In this document: positions 46,934 to 54,292 of the stretch, in pieces | How the letters are laid out: the number at the start of each line of letters is the position of its first letter | Position numbering within the stretch: position 1 is the stretch's first letter | NCBI RefSeq assembly: GCF_012295575.1 | Contig: NZ_CP051180.1 | Span: forward strand, 4,030,001-4,094,000 | Origin: Ferrimonas lipolytica | Lineage (GTDB): Bacteria > Pseudomonadota > Gammaproteobacteria > Enterobacterales > Shewanellaceae | Length of the DNA: 64,000 bases | Direction: 5' to 3' | Program-made: the position numbers and the translations under genes | The notes under the pieces: model-generated | The model's database searches: none | What the model was told of the DNA's origin: nothing | Seen by the model: the letters and a program-made list of their open reading frames with translations, nothing else

Positions 46934-46966
46934 AAAAAAAACGCCACCAGCATGAGCCGATGGCGG
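46934..46966 (-). terminator. Terminator of the hyp-ECF-selD operon
   Basis: On the minus strand CGCCATCGGC/GCTGGTGGCG forms a 10-bp stem with two G-U pairs and a TCAT loop, followed by T8. Confidence 0.75.
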
Positions 46967-46985
46967 TTTTTTAGTGTGCGGTCAA

Positions 46986-48017
46986 TCAGCTTAAGCTGAC
47001 GCGTGTTTCACCGCTGCGCTTAGCTAAGGTGCCGATAGGTTGAATGGCAATACCTGCCGCCGCTAAGGTTTGCTCTACTTCCGCTTTAGCGTCGTCAGCC
47101 ACCGCAACCAATAGGCCACCTGAGGTTTGAGGATCGCAGAGAATGGTGCGCTGCTGATCGGTTAGCTGTGGCAGTTTGTGGCCGTAGCTATCGAAATTAC
47201 GTCCGCTACCTCCAGGGATACAACCTTGCTCTAGGTAGTTGCTTACCTGTGGAAGCAAAGGTAACGACTCAAAGTTAATGGCCGCCTGTAAGCCGGCGCC
47301 ATCACACACTTCAATTAGGTGACCAGCTAAGCCGAAACCGGTGACATCGGTAATGGCATGAACACCACTAATTTTGGCCAATTCAATGCCAATTTTGTTG
47401 AGCTGACACATCGCTTCAACCGCAATTTCGCTGTGCTCTGGCTGCAGTTTCTTCTGTTTCTGCGCGGTAGTTAAAATGCCGATGCCCAGAGGCTTAGTTA
47501 GGTACAGGGTATCGCCCGCTTTGGCTTGGTCGTTACGTTTCAATTGCTCCAGAGGCACCGAACCGGTTACCGCTAGGCCAAAGATCGGTTCTGGACTATC
47601 GATGGAGTGGCCACCGGCCAAGATGATGCCCGCATCACGACAGGCAGCACGGCCACCTTCAATCACTTGCTGGCCCACTTCCGGTGGCAGCTTGGCAATT
47701 GGCCAACCAAAGATCGCAATCGCCATCATCGGCTTGCCACCCATGGCGTACACGTCACTGATGGCGTTGGTGGCGGCAATGCGGCCAAAGGTAAAGGGAT
47801 CATCGACGATTGGCATAAAGAAGTCGGTGGTGCTGATGATCCCGGTATGATCGTCCAGCGCATAGACGGCGGCGTCATCACGGCTAGCGTTACCCACAAT
47901 CAGACGCTTATCGTCCAGTTCCGGCAGGCTAGATTGCAACATGGTGTCGAGCACCTTAGGAGAGATCTTGCAGCCGCAGCCAGCGCCGTGACTGTATTCC
48001 GTTAGTTTAATAGTCAT
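46986..48017 (-). CDS. selD: Selenide, water dikinase (selenophosphate synthase)
   Basis: The 343-residue enzyme makes selenophosphate from selenide and ATP, the selenium donor for selenocysteine and 2-selenouridine. The catalytic pair is C14 and K17 in [10 protein letters not shown], equivalent to Cys17 and Lys20 of E. coli SelD. The ATP-binding Asp residues lie in DDAAVY and [12 protein letters not shown], and the Gly-rich segment is [11 protein letters not shown]. It is the cysteine form, not a selenoprotein. No selA or selB is in this window. It is the last gene of the leftward operon, 20 bases after the DsrE-like gene. Confidence 0.95.
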
Positions 48018-48037
48018 CTGATATCCAAAATTCCGCT

Positions 48038-48397
48038 TTAAATGTGAATCACTTTATCGCTGTCTAGGGTCCACTGGGTTAACTCAACTAGGGTAGCTAC
48101 CTCAACTCCGTCGATACAACGCTCAGGGGTTATGCCCCGTGCTTCAACACAGGTTTTACACATATGGATGCTTACCCCTTGGGCCAGCAAAATCTCCAAC
48201 ATCTGGCCAATGTGCACACTGAAATCTGGGGTCTTTTGCTGCGACAGCGCCGCGGTGACCGCATCAGACATCAGAAACAATCGTTGTGTTACCGGTGTGG
48301 TGCTATGTTCTTCCATCGCGATGGCCATGCGCAGCGCATTGTAGAGCTTCTCGCTGCCATAAGGACCATCGTGCGCAACTAAAAGAATGGAGGTCAT
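48038..48397 (-). CDS. DsrE-like sulfur/selenium-relay protein
   Basis: The 119-residue protein has the DsrE/DsrF fold pattern: [20 protein letters not shown] at the N-terminus, LFLMSDAV, and [16 protein letters not shown], whose CxxC (residues ~79-82) sits where family members carry the active cysteine. DsrE-type proteins carry persulfide sulfur between partners, and related ones co-occur with selD (YedF of selenium metabolism). Placement 20 bases before selD suggests handling of reduced selenium or sulfur for SelD, which is an inference. Confidence 0.75.
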
Positions 48398-48440
48398 GTG
48401 CTACCTATCTGGTTAAAAAGAACCGAGTGCATTGGCACTA

Positions 48441-49214
48441 TCAGTCCTTGTGGTTATTAGTTCTATCAAGCCCAAGCTGATGCCGCAATGACCATAATGA
48501 TGGTGACGGAAGTTCAGTGCAGGCTTGTAGTGCAGGATGTGACAGAGTCTGCACTGGCGTGCCATCGGCAGTAATTTTTCCCTGCTGCAGATGCAATACT
48601 CGGTCGCAATTTCGAGCTACAAACTCTAAGTCATGGCTGATGTTGATTATCGTGGTGCCACGCTGTCGTTGCTCGGCCAGGAACTGTTCTAGCAAGGCTA
48701 GATTATGACGATCAAAGTCGCGGCTTGGTTCGTCCAACAACAGTATTGCTGGCTGTGCCACCGCGATACTGGCAAGAGTCACCATACGGCGCTTACCTGC
48801 ATCAAGATCGAGTGGGTGGCATTGTGCATACTGAGTTAGCTCAAGCTGCGCTAGGATGTCGCTGCGATGGCGCTCTATCTTACTTTGAGGCCAACCTAGC
48901 TGCTTCATTACCAAGTTAACTTCGTTATCTACTCGGCTGTGCAACAGTTGGTTTTCTGGCTCTTGAAACAGTATGCCAATTAAGCCGCAGCGCTGTTGCG
49001 CGGGGATCTTATCAATAGCTTGCTGCTGCCATAAAACGTGGCCACGCCGAGGCTGGAGTAACCCAGCTATCAGTTTAATTAGGGTTGACTTACCGGCACC
49101 GTTATCACCGACTAAGCCGACATGTTGACCCGGTTTGATGGTTAACTTCGGCAGGTGCAAACAGTCGTTCTCGCAGTCTGGCCAACTGAATCGTAGCGGC
49201 TCAAGTTGTAGCAT
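48441..49214 (-). CDS. ECF transporter ATPase with altered signature motif (second ATPase)
   Basis: The 257-residue ABC ATPase has Walker A GDNGAGKST, Q-loop ILFQEPENQLL (the FQxPxxQ form typical of ECF ATPases), Walker B ILLLDEP with the catalytic Glu, D-loop RDFD, and switch His in ISHDLE. The signature motif, normally LSGGQ, reads LDAGK (LDLDAGKRRMVTLAS). The last residue of the T-unit motif partner groove is conserved. It overlaps the first ATPase gene by 14 bases. With that protein, the T and the S unit it would drive uptake of a small molecule across the inner membrane. Confidence 0.85.
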   Translation of the reverse strand: MLQLEPLRFSWPDCENDCLHLPKLTIKPGQHVGLVGDNGAGKSTLIKLIAGLLQPRRGHVLWQQQAIDKIPAQQRCGLIGILFQEPENQLLHSRVDNEVNLVMKQLGWPQSKIERHRSDILAQLELTQYAQCHPLDLDAGKRRMVTLASIAVAQPAILLLDEPSRDFDRHNLALLEQFLAEQRQRGTTIINISHDLEFVARNCDRVLHLQQGKITADGTPVQTLSHPALQACTELPSPSLWSLRHQLGLDRTNNHKD

Positions 49215-50028
49215 CTGGATGCTCCTTAAACCATTGCAGCAGCTGTCGGTCGGTTAGTGGAAGCCCTTTGCTGTCGCTCGATTCGTCTGTGGCGATGTTG
49301 GCTGCCAATGCTTGCCAAGCATCGCTGCACAGCAGCTGTTGCAACATCAGTGGCAGTTGTGATTGTGGCGAACCATAACCTGCGACCGTGCCGCCGTTGA
49401 GCACCAAGGCCTGATCAATCCACTCTACACTTGGTTGCAACGTGGTCTCGGCCAGCACAACCGTCAGTTGATGTTGCTGACTGTACTGCTTCAACTGCTG
49501 TAACAACTGCTGGTGGGCGAGGGGGGTTAATCGAGAAAAGGCCTGATCTAGGATCAGCAAGTCCGGTTGCATCGCTAGGGCACAGGCTAAACCTACCCGC
49601 TGTGCTTCGCCGCCGGAAAGTGTGGCTGGATGACGTGCAGCCAGATGACTACTGCCGGTTAGCTGCAACATCGTTTCAATCCGTTGCTCAACCTCAGTAA
49701 CACTTAGGTTGAGATTGTCCGGGCCGAAGCCAATCTCATCGGCTACGGTGTAAACGCAACCAGACCACTGCGGGCTGGCTTGCACCAGTTGTACCTTCAA
49801 TGGTGGGGTTTGCGGTGCCAACAGATCTTCATCGTGCCAATGCAGTTGGCCGTAACTGGACATTGGTGTCAGTTGTGGGACCCAGCCAGCCAGTGCTTGG
49901 CTTAATAGCGATTTGCCGGAGCCGTTGCCACCGGCGAGCAGCAGCCACTGTCCGGTAGCAAGGTGCAGATCGACTGGGCCGATATTAACCGCGCCAACCA
50001 GTTGCAGTTGCTGTGCGATTAACGCCAT
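49201..50028 (-). CDS. ECF transporter ATPase lacking the catalytic Glu and switch His (first ATPase)
   Basis: The 275-residue ABC ATPase has Walker A GGNGSGKS and a normal signature LSGGEAQRV. Walker B reads LLILDQAF, with Gln in place of the catalytic Glu, and the switch segment reads VVLAETT, with Glu where His is expected. Its own nucleotide site is therefore predicted to bind but not hydrolyse ATP, while it provides a normal signature motif to the other ATPase. ATG 50028 has AGGAG 7 bases upstream; the frame opens further, to 50076, inside the T gene. It overlaps ecfT by 10 bases and the second ATPase gene by 14. Confidence 0.85.
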   Translation of the reverse strand: MALIAQQLQLVGAVNIGPVDLHLATGQWLLLAGGNGSGKSLLSQALAGWVPQLTPMSSYGQLHWHDEDLLAPQTPPLKVQLVQASPQWSGCVYTVADEIGFGPDNLNLSVTEVEQRIETMLQLTGSSHLAARHPATLSGGEAQRVGLACALAMQPDLLILDQAFSRLTPLAHQQLLQQLKQYSQQHQLTVVLAETTLQPSVEWIDQALVLNGGTVAGYGSPQSQLPLMLQQLLCSDAWQALAANIATDESSDSKGLPLTDRQLLQWFKEHPDATT

Positions 50029-50723
50029 AACAGTGCTCCTAGTAGTTGCAGTAGCATCACCACCGCAATGCCCCAACGGAGTTGTTGTTGCCAGATTGGA
50101 TCTAAGGGGGCGTTACGGCGAGTGCGCTGGGCTTGATGGCGAAAGCCACGCATCTCCAGCATTGCACCTTGCTGTCCTACCCCTTGTAGCAGGCTATTGA
50201 GCAGCGGCATAAGTAACGCCGGCGCCGCCTTGCTACGTTGCCATAGTGTACCGTCCAACGGCACACCACGGGCAAGCTGAGCTTGGCGGATCTGTGCTAT
50301 CTGGCGCTTGATCGGATCGAGCAACAGTAGTGGTCCAGCAAGAAGGTAGCTCAAGGATAGCGGTAACCGGCTGGCAAACAGTGCGGCGATTAGTCGTGGC
50401 AATGGGCAGTAGCTAAACCACAGCTGTGCCACCACTAAACTGGTGGCGATCCGCAGCCATAAAGTGGTGGCAGGCCACGGCCAGTGCCAGCTCTCAATAG
50501 TGCCGAAGCAATAGGCTAGGATCTGACTGTGGATCAACCACAAACCTAGCGCCAGCGGCAGCAGCAGTTGCAGCAACCAGCTTAGGCGTTGACGTCCGTC
50601 AGGGTTGCCAAATAGTGCCAGCATTGGCAATGCCAATGCCAACAGCGACGCCGGGCCAAGCGGCAGCATAAAGGCGCTGACGCTGTACCAAAGCCATAGA
50701 ATAAAGCCGGTAAATGGGTGCAA
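50019..50723 (-). CDS. ECF transporter transmembrane (T) component
   Basis: The 234-residue protein has about five hydrophobic helices (near 10-40, 45-65, 80-110, 120-140, 210-232) and the two cytoplasmic coupling motifs of EcfT: an xARG box (QAQLARGVPLDG, residue ~150) and a second box (AMLEMRGFRHQ, ~190) that insert into the grooves of the two ATPases. It links ATP hydrolysis to toppling of the S component. It starts one base after the S-gene stop codon and overlaps the next gene. Confidence 0.85.
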   Translation of the reverse strand: MHPFTGFILWLWYSVSAFMLPLGPASLLALALPMLALFGNPDGRQRLSWLLQLLLPLALGLWLIHSQILAYCFGTIESWHWPWPATTLWLRIATSLVVAQLWFSYCPLPRLIAALFASRLPLSLSYLLAGPLLLLDPIKRQIAQIRQAQLARGVPLDGTLWQRSKAAPALLMPLLNSLLQGVGQQGAMLEMRGFRHQAQRTRRNAPLDPIWQQQLRWGIAVVMLLQLLGALLWR

Positions 50724-50724
50724 C

Positions 50725-51309
50725 TTAGCTCACCGCAGCTGCATCATCGAATTGATTCCGGCTGCGCTGTGGTAAGCGGCGCACTAGCTGCCAAGCAATC
50801 AAACAAGCAATGATCTTATCCGCTAAATTGGCGCCAATAACGGTCAGGGCAACTGATTGCAGCAAACCGTCGCCAACGGCGGTGAAGTAGGCGACGATAA
50901 AGTCGGCCCCACTACCGGTTGCACCACCAAACAGGTAAGCACGAATTGGCGCCGCCACTAGGGTCAGTGCTAAGGCAATTAACACACCACTGAGCAGTAC
51001 CTTAGGGAACGACTTAAAGCCGCCGCGTTGGGCGCATAAACCCGCAACTAAGCCAATAACGCCAGCAACCGGCGCGAAGGCGGCTGCAACTGGGCCACTG
51101 ATCAAACCCCAAATGAGGTTGGTAGTTAAGCCCGTGCACAGTGCAGCCCAAGGTCCAGCAAGCAGCGCCACGATGATGGAACCGATGGAGTCCATAAACA
51201 ACGGTAGCTTTAGCATTGAGTTGAGTTCACCGCCACTCATGTTGATGGCTATGCCCACAACCATCAGGCTTAGGGTGCGGTTGTTAAAACGGTATTTAGA
51301 TGGAGTCAC
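50725..51309 (-). CDS. ECF transporter substrate-binding (S) component
   Basis: The 194-residue membrane protein has about six helices and looks like an S unit: KLPLFMDSIGSIIVALLAGP, WAALCTGLTTNLIWGL, AAAFAPVAGVIGLVAG, and a conserved-looking ADFIVAYFTAVGDG. It lacks the N-terminal His-rich start of the nickel and cobalt units NikM/CbiM, so metal uptake of that type is not supported. The start is GTG 51309, with AAGGG 7 bases before it, 2 bases after the stop of the PPC gene, which suggests coupled translation. The substrate is unknown. Location between hydrogenase maturation and selenium genes is the only clue. Confidence 0.8.
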   Translation of the reverse strand: MTPSKYRFNNRTLSLMVVGIAINMSGGELNSMLKLPLFMDSIGSIIVALLAGPWAALCTGLTTNLIWGLISGPVAAAFAPVAGVIGLVAGLCAQRGGFKSFPKVLLSGVLIALALTLVAAPIRAYLFGGATGSGADFIVAYFTAVGDGLLQSVALTVIGANLADKIIACLIAWQLVRRLPQRSRNQFDDAAAVS

Positions 51310-51311
51310 TA

Positions 51312-51767
51312 TCAAACCCTTGAATCGGTATTTAGTTTGGAGGTGGAAAGCTCTGGATACCCAGAGAGATGGCAATGGCGTCGTTCAAACTTGAGCGCCG
51401 GTAGGATCCCAATCACCAACTCTAAGGTGGTACGTACGACGCAACCGGACAGTACGTGGCCGCCAACCATCTGCCCTTGGGCGTTACTCAGGCTAATGTG
51501 CAGGTGGCTGCAATCGGCATCGAGGGTGCCACTGAGGGCATGGACCTCAAACGGTTCCGTCAACACACAACCCTCAGGCTGAGCTGCGAAGCGCAGATTG
51601 GCAACACTAAGGCTGCCGACGGCAGAGGCGATAAATGCGGCGCCAACCTGTTGTTGTTGCAGCCAAGCATCGAGTTGCTGCAATAGCTCCTGACCAGGCA
51701 ACAACCGCAATACTGCATATTGCACATCACTGGTTAGTGTTTGGTTCGGATTGAGTGGGGTGCTCAT
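51312..51767 (-). CDS. PPC/DUF296-domain protein
   Basis: The 151-residue protein consists of one PPC (DUF296) domain: AVLRLLPGQELLQQLDAW, AAFIASAVGSLSVANLRF, then GGHVLSGCVVRTTLELVIG. The GGH histidine and neighbouring residues are those that bind metal in bacterial family members of known structure. Plant relatives bind DNA through a fused AT-hook; the bacterial single-domain form has no settled role. Here it is tied to the S component by a 2-base gap and lies after hypE, so it may bind the transported ligand or act as a regulator (inference). Confidence 0.75.
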   Translation of the reverse strand: MSTPLNPNQTLTSDVQYAVLRLLPGQELLQQLDAWLQQQQVGAAFIASAVGSLSVANLRFAAQPEGCVLTEPFEVHALSGTLDADCSHLHISLSNAQGQMVGGHVLSGCVVRTTLELVIGILPALKFERRHCHLSGYPELSTSKLNTDSRV

Positions 51768-51934
51768 AGTGATGCTCCGCTGTCCGGCTAAAAGAGCGGG
51801 GTACCATACAGGAATTGGGTGACGATTAGCGTCGACGAGTGCACATTTGCATGATTTTTGTGCGCAATAATGGCCTGTTTGAGGGAGATTGCCCCAGCTA
51901 GCTGCAACTGGGGCGAGTGTTATTCTGTTTGCCG

Positions 51935-52939
51935 TTAGCAGATCCGTGGCAGCAGTTCGCCTTTCGGCAGCTCCATATAACGCTTAGATCCCCACGGGCT
52001 GGTCTGCACTACTTTACCGGCGTACTCGTTGCACACCTTGCCGATCACGGTAGCGGTTGACTGGAACTGCTGCAGGATGGCCACTGCTTGTTCGGCCTGT
52101 TCCGCAGCAACCGCTACAACGAAGGTGCCTTCGTTAGCCAGTTCTGCGGGTTCGAAGCCAAACAATTCGCACAAACCTTGTACCGCAGGATCAATCGGCA
52201 GCGCTTGTTCCGCTACCTCAATGCCCAGCTCGCGTGCCTCAGCCCACTCATTTAATACCGCGGCTAGGCCGCCACGAGTAGCGTCGCGCATCGCTTTGGT
52301 GTCGATGCCTGCATCCAATAGAGCCTTTACTGCTGGCCATAGCGTATCGCAATCTGACTGCAGCTCGGTGTCGAGTTCAAGCCCTTCGCGGCTTGCTAAG
52401 ATACAGGCGCCGTGAGCACCGATATCACGGGAAACGATGATAGCATCGCCAGCCTCGAGCCGTTTCCATGATGGTGCCGCTATGCACGTACCTACACCCG
52501 AGGTGTTGATGAATAAGCCATCGGCAGCGCCCTTTGGCACAACTTTGGTGTCGCCGCAGACGATCTTAGCGCCAGACTTGGCCAGCTCTGCCGCCATCGA
52601 TTGCACTAGGCTTTCCAGTTCAGCAAACTCCAAGCCCTCTTCGATGATGAAACCACAGGAGAGGTACTGCGGAATCGCGCCAGCCATGGCCAGATCGTTA
52701 ACGGTGCCAGCAATGGCAATCTTGCCTAAGTCGCCGCCATTAAAGTGACGGGGTGATACCGTAAAACTGTCGGTAGTAAAGGCTACCGGACCATCAAACT
52801 GCAACCGTGCTGCGTCTTCGTCGCGGACTAAGATATCGTTTTCAAAGTGCTTGAAGAACACCTTACGGATGAGGTTGTTCATCTCCACGCCGCCACCGCC
52901 GTGGCTAAGTTCGACGCGGCGTTTCTTTAATTCGTTCAT
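51935..52939 (-). CDS. hypE: Hydrogenase maturation carbamoyl dehydratase HypE
   Basis: The 334-residue protein has the HypE features: ELSHGGGGVEMNNLI at the N-terminus, the ATP-binding segments TTDSFTVSP and GDLGKIAIAGTVNDLAMAGA, and the C-terminal PRIC, whose cysteine carries the thiocarboxamide that is dehydrated to thiocyanate. It supplies cyanide ligands for the NiFe hydrogenase iron. ATG 52939 overlaps the hypD stop by 4 bases. HypE and SelD share the same fold and are easily confused; this one has the C-terminal Cys and lacks the CxCK start. Confidence 0.95.
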   Translation of the reverse strand: MNELKKRRVELSHGGGGVEMNNLIRKVFFKHFENDILVRDEDAARLQFDGPVAFTTDSFTVSPRHFNGGDLGKIAIAGTVNDLAMAGAIPQYLSCGFIIEEGLEFAELESLVQSMAAELAKSGAKIVCGDTKVVPKGAADGLFINTSGVGTCIAAPSWKRLEAGDAIIVSRDIGAHGACILASREGLELDTELQSDCDTLWPAVKALLDAGIDTKAMRDATRGGLAAVLNEWAEARELGIEVAEQALPIDPAVQGLCELFGFEPAELANEGTFVVAVAAEQAEQAVAILQQFQSTATVIGKVCNEYAGKVVQTSPWGSKRYMELPKGELLPRIC

Positions 52940-54069
52940 AGGCTGACTCCAGCGTATTTGTAGTGCGCGTGACAAGCGCCTTCGGAGCTAACCATACAGC
53001 TGCCCATTGGGGTTTGTGGGGTGCAACCGCGGCCGAACACCTTGCACTGTTGCGGCGTTTTAATGCCTTTAAGGATCTCACCGCACATGCAGGCTTTGTG
53101 ATCGTCAACCGGATCTGTAGGCAGGATCTGGGCGTATTTAAGTTCGGCGTTGCGATGGTTGAACTGCGGTTTCAGCCGTAATGCGGAGGCGGGGATGTCA
53201 CCTAAACCACGCCAACGGAAGGCGTCTGCTAATTCGAAGTAATCAGCTACTAACTGCTGCGCTTTGAGATTACCGTCGTGACTCACCGAGCGCCGGTATT
53301 GGATCTCAAGTTTGGCTTCGCCTGCAATCGCTTGCTGTACTAGCATCAACACTCCTTCGAGGATATCGACTGGCTCAAAACCAGTAACAACCAGGGGAGT
53401 TTGGTAGTTGTCGACGGCGGCTTGATAGATCTTGGCACCAGTAATAACCGAAACGTGGGATGGGCCGATAAAGGCGTTAATCGTGGCTTCACCGCCAGCC
53501 ATCACCGCATCGATTGCTGGCGGAACCAACACATGGTTGACGTGTAATAGCAGATTATCTAACTCCATCGCTTCTGCTTGTTGCACTAGCACCGCACTCA
53601 TTGGAGTAGTGGTTTCAAAACCGATGGCAAAGAATACTACGGTTTTGTCTGGATTCTGTTGTGCCAGTACTAGCGCATCGAGGGGATCATATAGGGCGCG
53701 AATGTCTGCGCCTTGGGCTCGTAGCTTGGCCAAACTGGTGTCTGAGCCGGGAACGCGGATCATATCGCCTAAGGTGGCGAGGATAACATCTGGCTGTTGG
53801 GCGAGGGCGATCGCTTGATCGATGCGCTCTTTCGGCATGATACATACTGGGCAACCCGGGCCATGAACAAAGTCGATGTTATCTGGCAGCAATTGGTGCA
53901 AGCCAAATTTCATAATGGAGTGGGTGTGGCCGCCGCACACCTCCATGATACGCAGTGGCTCAGGCAGTTGTGGTGCTATCTGGGCGATCTTAGCCAACAA
54001 CATCTTGATGGTGTCGGGATCGCGAAAACCGTTGTATAGCTGCTCTAGGGTGATGCCATTAGCAGCCAT
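52936..54069 (-). CDS. hypD: Hydrogenase maturation protein HypD
   Basis: The 377-residue iron-sulfur protein has all family cysteine motifs: EVCGGHTHSIMKFG (about 44-57), HGPGCPVCIMP (about 69-79), GFETTTP, and a C-terminal cluster region with CMCGEILKG, CKVFGRGCTP and GSCMVSSEGACHA. With HypC it is the scaffold on which Fe(CN)2CO is built for NiFe hydrogenases. It overlaps hypC by 11 bases. No hydrogenase structural gene nor hypA, hypB or hypF is in this window. Confidence 0.96.
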   Translation of the reverse strand: MAANGITLEQLYNGFRDPDTIKMLLAKIAQIAPQLPEPLRIMEVCGGHTHSIMKFGLHQLLPDNIDFVHGPGCPVCIMPKERIDQAIALAQQPDVILATLGDMIRVPGSDTSLAKLRAQGADIRALYDPLDALVLAQQNPDKTVVFFAIGFETTTPMSAVLVQQAEAMELDNLLLHVNHVLVPPAIDAVMAGGEATINAFIGPSHVSVITGAKIYQAAVDNYQTPLVVTGFEPVDILEGVLMLVQQAIAGEAKLEIQYRRSVSHDGNLKAQQLVADYFELADAFRWRGLGDIPASALRLKPQFNHRNAELKYAQILPTDPVDDHKACMCGEILKGIKTPQQCKVFGRGCTPQTPMGSCMVSSEGACHAHYKYAGVSL

Positions 54070-54292
54070 TAGCCAGCTCCATCTGCTTCAGTAAAGCTAA
54101 GTTCTCGATAGCGGTTTTATGGTCAATTTTGTTCATCGCAAACCCAACATGCAATAGCACGTAGTCGCCGATTTCAAGCGGCTCAGCAATCAAGTGGGTG
54201 CTGACTTTGCGTTTGACCCCCATGGTATCGACAGTGACGCTGTCTTCGTTGGGATGAAGCTCAGTTACCTGAGAGGGGATGGAGAGGCACAT
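54059..54292 (-). CDS. hypC: Hydrogenase maturation chaperone HypC
   Basis: The 77-residue protein begins MCLSIPSQV, with the conserved N-terminal Cys2 that binds iron with HypD, and has the beta-barrel segment GDYVLLHVGFAMNKID. The upstream frame is open to 54481, but ATG 54292 has AAAGGAA 8 bases before it and the required MC start. It is the first gene of the leftward operon that continues through hypD, hypE, the ECF transporter and selD. Confidence 0.95.
   Translation of the reverse strand: MCLSIPSQVTELHPNEDSVTVDTMGVKRKVSTHLIAEPLEIGDYVLLHVGFAMNKIDHKTAIENLALLKQMELANGC

Follow-up and report, generated by a model that had tools for sequence, protein, structure and literature searches.

In a window of 64,000 nucleotides from the complete genome of Ferrimonas lipolytica (4,133,133 bases; contig NZ_CP051180.1, positions 4,030,001 to 4,094,000), ten genes lie on the minus strand in the order hypC-hypD-hypE-PPC-S-T-A1-A2-DsrE-selD (from the open reading frame [ORF] coordinates, numbered within the window). 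Five of these genes, PPC-S-T-A1-A2, form a widespread energy-coupling factor (ECF) cassette for which we found no description. We take the functional unit in this genome to be the seven-gene series PPC-S-T-A1-A2-YchN-selD, an importer of a small sulfur or selenium compound that is tied to SelD in some lineages, and we give this reading about an even chance of being correct; hypCDE is probably an incidental neighbor of the ECF block, a local add-on. The seven genes are as follows (all profile scores in bits).

51312..51767, minus strand: PPC (PCC/DUF296) domain protein; PF03479 93.1, passing the Pfam cut-off
50725..51309, minus strand: ECF S component, CD3073-like, substrate binding; NF045596 131 (cut-off 180)
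50019..50723, minus strand: probable ECF T component, transmembrane coupling; PF02361 (CbiQ) 21.5 (cut-off 25)
49201..50028, minus strand: ECF ATPase A1; PF00005 73.3, passing the Pfam cut-off
48441..49214, minus strand: ECF ATPase A2; PF00005 94.9, passing the Pfam cut-off
48038..48397, minus strand: DsrE-family protein, YchN type; PF02635 74, passing the Pfam cut-off
46986..48017, minus strand: selD, selenide, water dikinase; NF002098 573 and TIGR00476 452.8, both over the cut-offs

Family and fold evidence supports the assignment of S, T, A1 and A2 to an ECF importer that has a T-A-A module dedicated to it; importers of this kind transport small vitamins or cofactors at high affinity. The S unit starts with GTG at 51309 (the part analyzed comprises 190 codons from 51297), and its sole NCBIfam match is NF045596 (CD3073), at a score below the family cut-off, so that it is a relative rather than a member; the Pfam family ECF_trnsprt is matched at 23.2 bits, below its cut-off of 30.7. 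An AlphaFold model of the S unit (mean predicted local distance difference test [pLDDT] 82.5) has ECF S components as its best PDB matches (probability 1.00, template modeling [TM] score about 0.6, E value 6e-3 at best), and resembles PanT, ThiT, FolT and RibU best. The initial annotation had judged the S unit unlike the NikM/CbiM metal type, and this is borne out both by the NF045596 match and by the vitamin-type fold matches, with no CbiM/NikM-type family among the NCBIfam and Pfam matches; metal import was rejected on the family and fold of the S unit. The T component scores below the CbiQ cut-off, and the Escherichia coli gene at the same place is annotated as ECF component T. Both ABC ATPases have Walker motifs, as read from the translations; one of the signatures is degenerate and one Walker B is altered. 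A1 has a canonical signature, LSGGE, and a Walker B that ends LILDQ, and A2 has the Walker B LLLDE and the degenerate signature LDAGK. The two ATPases look asymmetric, and one ATP site may therefore be inactive. The PPC protein matches the solved structures 2hx0 and 2nmu in profile searches at about 5e-61, and the SelD carries Cys at the position where some SelD proteins have selenocysteine.

The order PPC-S-T-A1-A2-DsrE-selD is kept in F. senticii (L092) at 57-82% protein identity and with short gaps or overlaps; because of this conservation we regard the seven-gene block as more than chance. The five-gene cassette reaches much further. A scan of 84,980 species genomes for the S unit yielded 90 confirmed loci, of which the best 80 were used (the 80 loci). 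PPC has a match in 79 of these; in the loci examined for gene order, S, T, A and A usually come next after PPC, with some genes hidden by ORF overlap. Judged by record titles, the hosts are Enterobacterales, Aeromonas, Wohlfahrtiimonas, Ferrimonas, Betaproteobacteria metagenome-assembled genomes (MAGs), Paracoccus and Hyphomicrobiales, Desulfobulbia, a Desulfovibrionaceae MAG, a Spirochaetaceae MAG and Chloroflexota. No relatives were found on viral contigs. The E. coli copy (L094 6542-9618, NZ_AP021933.1) comprises PPC-S-T-A-A, with no names given to the genes; it is flanked by epd on one side and by a kinase gene, then fumE, on the other, and a 5.5-kb stretch with the cassette is covered to at least 80% in 3,291 of 5,426 complete E. 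coli genomes. Literature on the cassette (ECF with CD3073, PPC or epd/tktA) was not found among open-licence papers, so that its novelty is unproved; no paper naming the E. coli PPC protein stood among the matches listed, and the portions of the open-licence literature covered yielded no paper that joins selD or selenium metabolism to ECF transporters.

In a tree of S units the PPC type forms one set with support of 92/93, which does not rank with the strongest branches. The Ferrimonas S units group as sisters of one from a betaproteobacterial MAG, L028 (support 100/98), which fits transfer. Riboswitches were considered as a clue to the substrate and set aside: in the loci searched with Rfam (among them 23 of the 80), nothing matched immediately upstream of the cassette. 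At a greater distance, a guanidine-II riboswitch match in Kaistia (L080 8225-8269) shares the strand of PPC and precedes it by about 1.2 kb, and a cobalamin riboswitch match in L063 is found about 3 kb ahead of the DsrE gene, on the opposite strand.

The evidence for a selenium connection comes from the neighbors of the cassette. Of the 80 loci, ten (L028, L035, L042, L059, L063, L077, L078, L082, L091 and L092) have a selenium feature in the sequence fetched around them, counting selD, yedF, a YedF-type DsrE protein, selB and the selenocysteine tRNA (tRNA-Sec). Each of the ten belongs to the 24 loci that come from neither Enterobacterales nor Aeromonas (tRNA-Sec could be missed outside the 23 loci on which Rfam was run). 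F. senticii holds selD in the block. Two Desulfobulbia, a Desulfopila MAG (L091) and genome G917 (L182), have the series PPC-S-T-A-A-small ORF-selD-yedF, in which SelD and YedF pass TIGR00476 and TIGR03527, and in L091 a tRNA-Sec follows 86 bases after yedF. Two Desulfobulbaceae MAGs have, respectively, a tRNA-Sec 1.7 kb after A2 (L082) and selD about 8 kb away (L077), and a Herpetosiphon MAG (L063) has SelB (313 bits, cut-off 242). A lone YedF-type DsrE protein is encoded just upstream of PPC in Betaproteobacteria MAGs (L028 and L042) and in Chloroflexota (L035, L059, L063 and L078). When 13,769 six-frame fragments from 117 loci were searched with a profile built only from four YedF carboxyl-terminal halves, the matches beyond its four sources fell in loci of six genomes (one twice, L035/L139), all on the plus strand and just upstream of PPC; the two YedF-type proteins checked against TIGR03527, from L035 and L042, reach 100 and 107 bits (cut-off 110). 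The class of the L091 genome (taken to be Desulfobulbia) has an S match in eight of 257 genomes, seven of the PPC type; two of these seven have selD-yedF in line, one has tRNA-Sec nearby and one has selD 8 kb off. Seven of the 50 rows of the S tree bear the selenium label, and at least four changes are needed to account for it.

Two further observations concern the Desulfobulbia loci. The ORF between the ECF ATPase and selD is small (66-75 amino acids) and contains cysteine (L091 13047-13274, L182 13463-13663); neither copy has a Pfam match, and the L091 copy has no NCBIfam match. Genes for double-cubane-cluster-type reductases lie near the cassette (L091 8268, L060 3305, L082 1001 and 8268), the L091 reductase exceeding the NF040772 cut-off and the L060 and L082 copies being assigned by similarity to it.

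As controls we used 18 loci with nucleoside-type S units (L141-L158) from the class of genome G216, taken to be Anaerolineae (this class includes the genome of L079). Protein searches found selenium genes at none of the 18 (tRNA-Sec was sought in five of them), and a Fisher test of 10/24 versus 0/18 selenium-linked loci gives p = 0.0013, with related loci treated as independent and with counts made by hand that include L077 (selD 8 kb off) and L082 (tRNA-Sec only). An adjacency test (p = 1e-4), based on hand-entered counts (six of 46 adjacent slots, one elsewhere) and on a list that contains spurious ORFs, gives rough orientation, and we do not count it as evidence.

Several results weigh against a dedicated selenium role. 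Protein searches found selenium genes at 0 of the 56 Enterobacterales and Aeromonas loci, and no selenium feature was found near three of the seven PPC-type Desulfobulbia loci (L060, L086 and L183). SelD exceeded the cut-off in 34 of 39 genomes tested, or in 33 of 37 when G141 (with a distant S unit) and G245 (no PPC found), which are not cassette genomes, are left aside; the four misses are Kaistia, Oryzibacter, a Hyphomicrobiales MAG and a betaproteobacterial MAG (L042). The class of G216 has selD in 24 of 26 S holders versus 163 of 199 genomes overall (p = 0.11), and the genus of the Paracoccus genome G239 has the S unit in four and selD in 12 of 13 genomes (across the class of G239 an S match occurs in 2/337 genomes); because selD is common in these groups, co-occurrence of S and selD is weak evidence and does not discriminate. 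A PPC match also lies near four of the nucleoside-type S loci, so that PPC alone is no selenium marker. Within Ferrimonas the S unit is present in two of 14 genomes and missing from 12, and a YchN-type DsrE protein occurs in 11 of the 14, nine of these without the S unit. The proposal of the initial annotation that uptake of a selenium compound feeds SelD stands in part: it is favored by selD-yedF in two Desulfobulbia, by selB in Herpetosiphon, by the YedF-type DsrE proteins of Chloroflexota and Betaproteobacteria MAGs, and by a sel gene series in Enterococcus (described below), and the tie between cassette and selenium is not strict, because most copies showed no selenium neighbor and SelD is below the cut-off in four of 37 genomes.

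The absence of selenium genes from the 56 enterobacterial and Aeromonas loci and the four genomes without SelD over the cut-off favor a plainer explanation, in which the PPC-ECF system imports an ordinary nucleoside, pentose or vitamin and stands before selD by chance or for general growth needs. Related S units point the same way. Nucleoside hydrolase and ribokinase matches occur in five of the 18 nucleoside-type loci (L142-L145 and L154; four of the five also have a PPC match), whose ECF systems are likely nucleoside importers of the same S family, and likewise at the S locus of G141; two haloarchaeal plasmids (L097 and L098) carry the set nucleoside hydrolase-USP-S-T-long ATPase-nucleoside hydrolase (the hydrolases as annotated), likely for nucleoside uptake. 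Ferrimonas, Betaproteobacteria MAGs, Desulfobulbia, Chloroflexota and Enterococcus all show linkage to selenium genes, which stands against an ordinary substrate, as does a nucleoside hydrolase search (one query) that gave no match in the sequence fetched for the 80 loci. We consider an ordinary substrate a possibility that deserves attention, although we do not expect it to be the answer.

Uptake of a sulfur or selenium compound has a narrower form, in which the substrate is a thio- or seleno-nucleoside or nucleobase (for example, from tRNA breakdown) whose selenium or sulfur would be stripped by a TudS-like or other enzyme and used by SelD. The relevant neighbors belong to S units of the CD3073 family and its kin. 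The megaplasmids of Enterococcus raffinosus and E. gilvus carry, on one strand, selD-yedF-DUF3343-selB-class V aminotransferase-selA-CD3072 with the CD3073 S unit at the end, where CD3072 (NF045597) is a TudS-related putative desulfidase; Cetobacterium pairs CD3073 with CD3072 and has its own T component and ATPases; and in Acetoanaerobium a weak TudS-type match (20.7 bits, cut-off 34.7) precedes a related S unit. TudS acts on thiouracil and 4-thio-UMP, according to the part of PMC10611767 consulted. Because related S units neighbor a nucleoside hydrolase, a PfkB kinase or a TudS-like desulfidase, they hint at a nucleoside-like substrate. The PPC-type loci searched, however, have no CD3072 match (one query), CD3073 proper and the PPC type fall on separate branches of the tree, and selenium in the substrate is a guess; we hold the nucleoside form of the explanation to be doubtful. 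Also in Acetoanaerobium, the CD3072-like gene and the S unit are preceded, at a distance of about 4.5 kb, by ORFs resembling methylthioribose kinase and methylthioribose-1-phosphate isomerase (by eye; L101 149-2431).

The DsrE-like protein of the window is a YchN orthologue, as its profile match (E value 1.1e-40) and fold match (E value 6.9e-12, 53% identity) to PDB 1jx7 (YchN) indicate. Two other assignments were tried and rejected. The protein is a lone DsrE domain without a match to TIGR03527, the model of YedF (TusA plus DsrE, at least 110 bits), and the TusD, TusB and TusC models give 25.6, 24.6 and 21.5 bits against cut-offs of 89.25, 49.2 and 94.15; it is thus neither YedF nor TusD. Its CxxC motif (C80 and C83) has both cysteines invariant in 11 aligned Ferrimonas copies, and a CxxC also stands at the corresponding place in two aligned YedF proteins. 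The initial annotation had the DsrE-like protein pass selenium to SelD: its placement in the DsrE family holds, it proves to be a YchN orthologue rather than YedF, and we infer its role as a carrier of selenium or sulfur. Near the YchN gene of Ferrimonas genomes without the S unit, no selD was found in eight fetched 10-kb stretches. In these other Ferrimonas loci (L185-L192) the YchN-like gene adjoins genes of SelO-like length, and the one tested, in L187, is a YdiU/SelO homologue (NF000658 489 bits, cut-off 431).

If the seven-gene unit does import a sulfur or selenium compound, S-T-A1-A2 would act as an ATP-driven ECF importer that takes up a small organic molecule containing one of these elements, and the PPC protein would be a cytosolic partner that binds or senses the incoming substrate. 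Selenium would be released from the compound and handed to SelD, which makes selenophosphate from selenide; it would travel as perselenide or selenide, and the CxxC of the YchN-type protein may be what carries it. The five-gene PPC-ECF cassette would then be a wider module that stands beside selenium genes in several lineages and alone in others.

Upstream of PPC the window holds hypC, hypD and hypE, and the series ends beyond selD at a hairpin with a T tail:

54059..54292, minus strand: hypC; TIGR00074 75.5 (cut-off 48)
52936..54069, minus strand: hypD; TIGR00075 503.7, above the cut-off
51935..52939, minus strand: hypE, its ATG overlapping the hypD stop; TIGR02124 418.8, above the cut-off
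51768..51934, minus strand: gap of 167 bases between hypE and PPC, with a GC-rich hairpin at about 51914-51891 that has no T tail
46942..46965, minus strand: terminator-like hairpin with a T8 tail, 3' of selD, from a pattern scan

These coordinates and family scores agree with the initial annotation on the order and spacing of the ten minus-strand genes and on the single larger gap of 167 bases after hypE (51934-51768). The terminator that it placed at the end of the cluster corresponds to the T8 hairpin at 46965-46942, although such patterns barely exceed what is expected by chance (11 sites in the window versus 8.8 in shuffled sequence), so that this hairpin is weak evidence when taken alone. 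The hairpin in the gap forms ten pairs in both the minimum-energy and the centroid fold; we rejected it as a special element, since it is not unusual for its composition (z-score for the whole gap -0.33).

The position of hypE, 167 bases upstream of PPC on the same strand, might suggest that the importer brings in a precursor of the hydrogenase cofactor and works with HypCDE, and in Oryzibacter a hypC match lies about 7 kb upstream of the cassette. Gene order elsewhere speaks against this. The F. senticii block has no hyp gene upstream (in that place stands a gene whose protein start resembles, by eye, the M3 peptidase of the window, a PF01432 match), and the F. senticii hypC, hypD and hypE, 77%, 81% and 83% identical to those of the window, lie on another contig, adjoining ORFs that by eye resemble hypA, hypB, hypF and a hydrogenase maturation protease; because hypCDE sits elsewhere in F. 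senticii, the hypCDE-ECF neighborhood is not conserved. In the genome of the window itself a strong match to the hydrogenase large subunit lies at 1.2315 Mb, followed by HypF and HypB (over the cut-off), and the stretch around it has a hypC-like match and no hypD or hypE match; hypCDE is at 4.08 Mb, and on a circular chromosome the distance would be about 1.28 Mb. BLAST of HypC, HypD and HypE against the fetched loci, including the 80, gave a single match, the hypC of Oryzibacter (L083), with no hypD match and no hypE match above 150 bits across the 80 loci. Hydrogenase matches occur in all 14 Ferrimonas genomes, yet 12 of these have no S unit. Two observations led us to reject import of a hydrogenase cofactor precursor, which we regard as very improbable: the order of the genes in F. 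senticii, and where the hydrogenase, hypF and hypB genes lie in the genome of the window. The functional tie to hydrogenase maturation that had been proposed falls with the hyp-free block of F. senticii, and conservation of hypE-PPC adjacency finds no counterpart among the 80 loci beyond that distant hypC. The Oryzibacter hypC match (51 bits) is accompanied by the apparent end of a NiFe hydrogenase small-subunit gene (L083 1-2424), and SelD is below the cut-off in the same genome.

According to the sections consulted of PMC9312934, PMC13188914 and PMC11097638, no dedicated or high-affinity selenium transporter is known; a May 2026 review states that a specific high-affinity selenium transporter in prokaryotes is not known; a search for the term ECF in the available text of PMC9312934 and PMC13188914 returned nothing. 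The cassette is a concrete, testable candidate for the missing prokaryotic selenium uptake; its gene set is defined, and it occurs in marine bacteria and in many E. coli strains. On genome linkage, it is conceivable, if rather unlikely, that the PPC-ECF system is the first dedicated organic-selenium uptake system, probably for a nucleoside-like carrier of selenium or sulfur that is shared or scavenged, with SelD and DsrE/YedF-type acceptors downstream. Were this so, the unnamed E. coli genes would form an accessory system for scavenging selenium or sulfur; were the substrate a plain nucleoside or vitamin, a common five-gene E. coli importer for which we found no function assignment would be explained.

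Four known systems invite comparison. The E. coli genes between epd and the kinase gene before fumE are the same five in the same order, with an S unit 57-58% identical to that of the window, but no selenium gene stands beside them in the stretch shown. YedE and YedF have been proposed, from their linkage to SelD, to serve selenium transport and trafficking (Lin et al. 2015, PMC5322559, consulted in part); in Desulfobulbia, Chloroflexota and Betaproteobacteria MAGs, PPC-ECF loci have YedF or a YedF-type DsrE half as a neighbor, whereas YedE is a single membrane protein rather than an ECF system and Ferrimonas has YchN in place of YedF. CD3073/CD3072 (NF045596, NF045597) is close in that the S unit of the window matches only that NCBIfam family and the Enterococcus CD3073 ends a sel series, and differs in that the S unit of the window scores below 180 bits, lies on a separate branch and is accompanied by PPC instead of CD3072. 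With the ECF transporters of the FolT, ThiT, RibU and PanT class the importer shares the S fold, a probable T protein and two ABC ATPases; it differs from them in an S unit below the cut-offs of the families matched, and in T-A-A genes that form one series with PPC.

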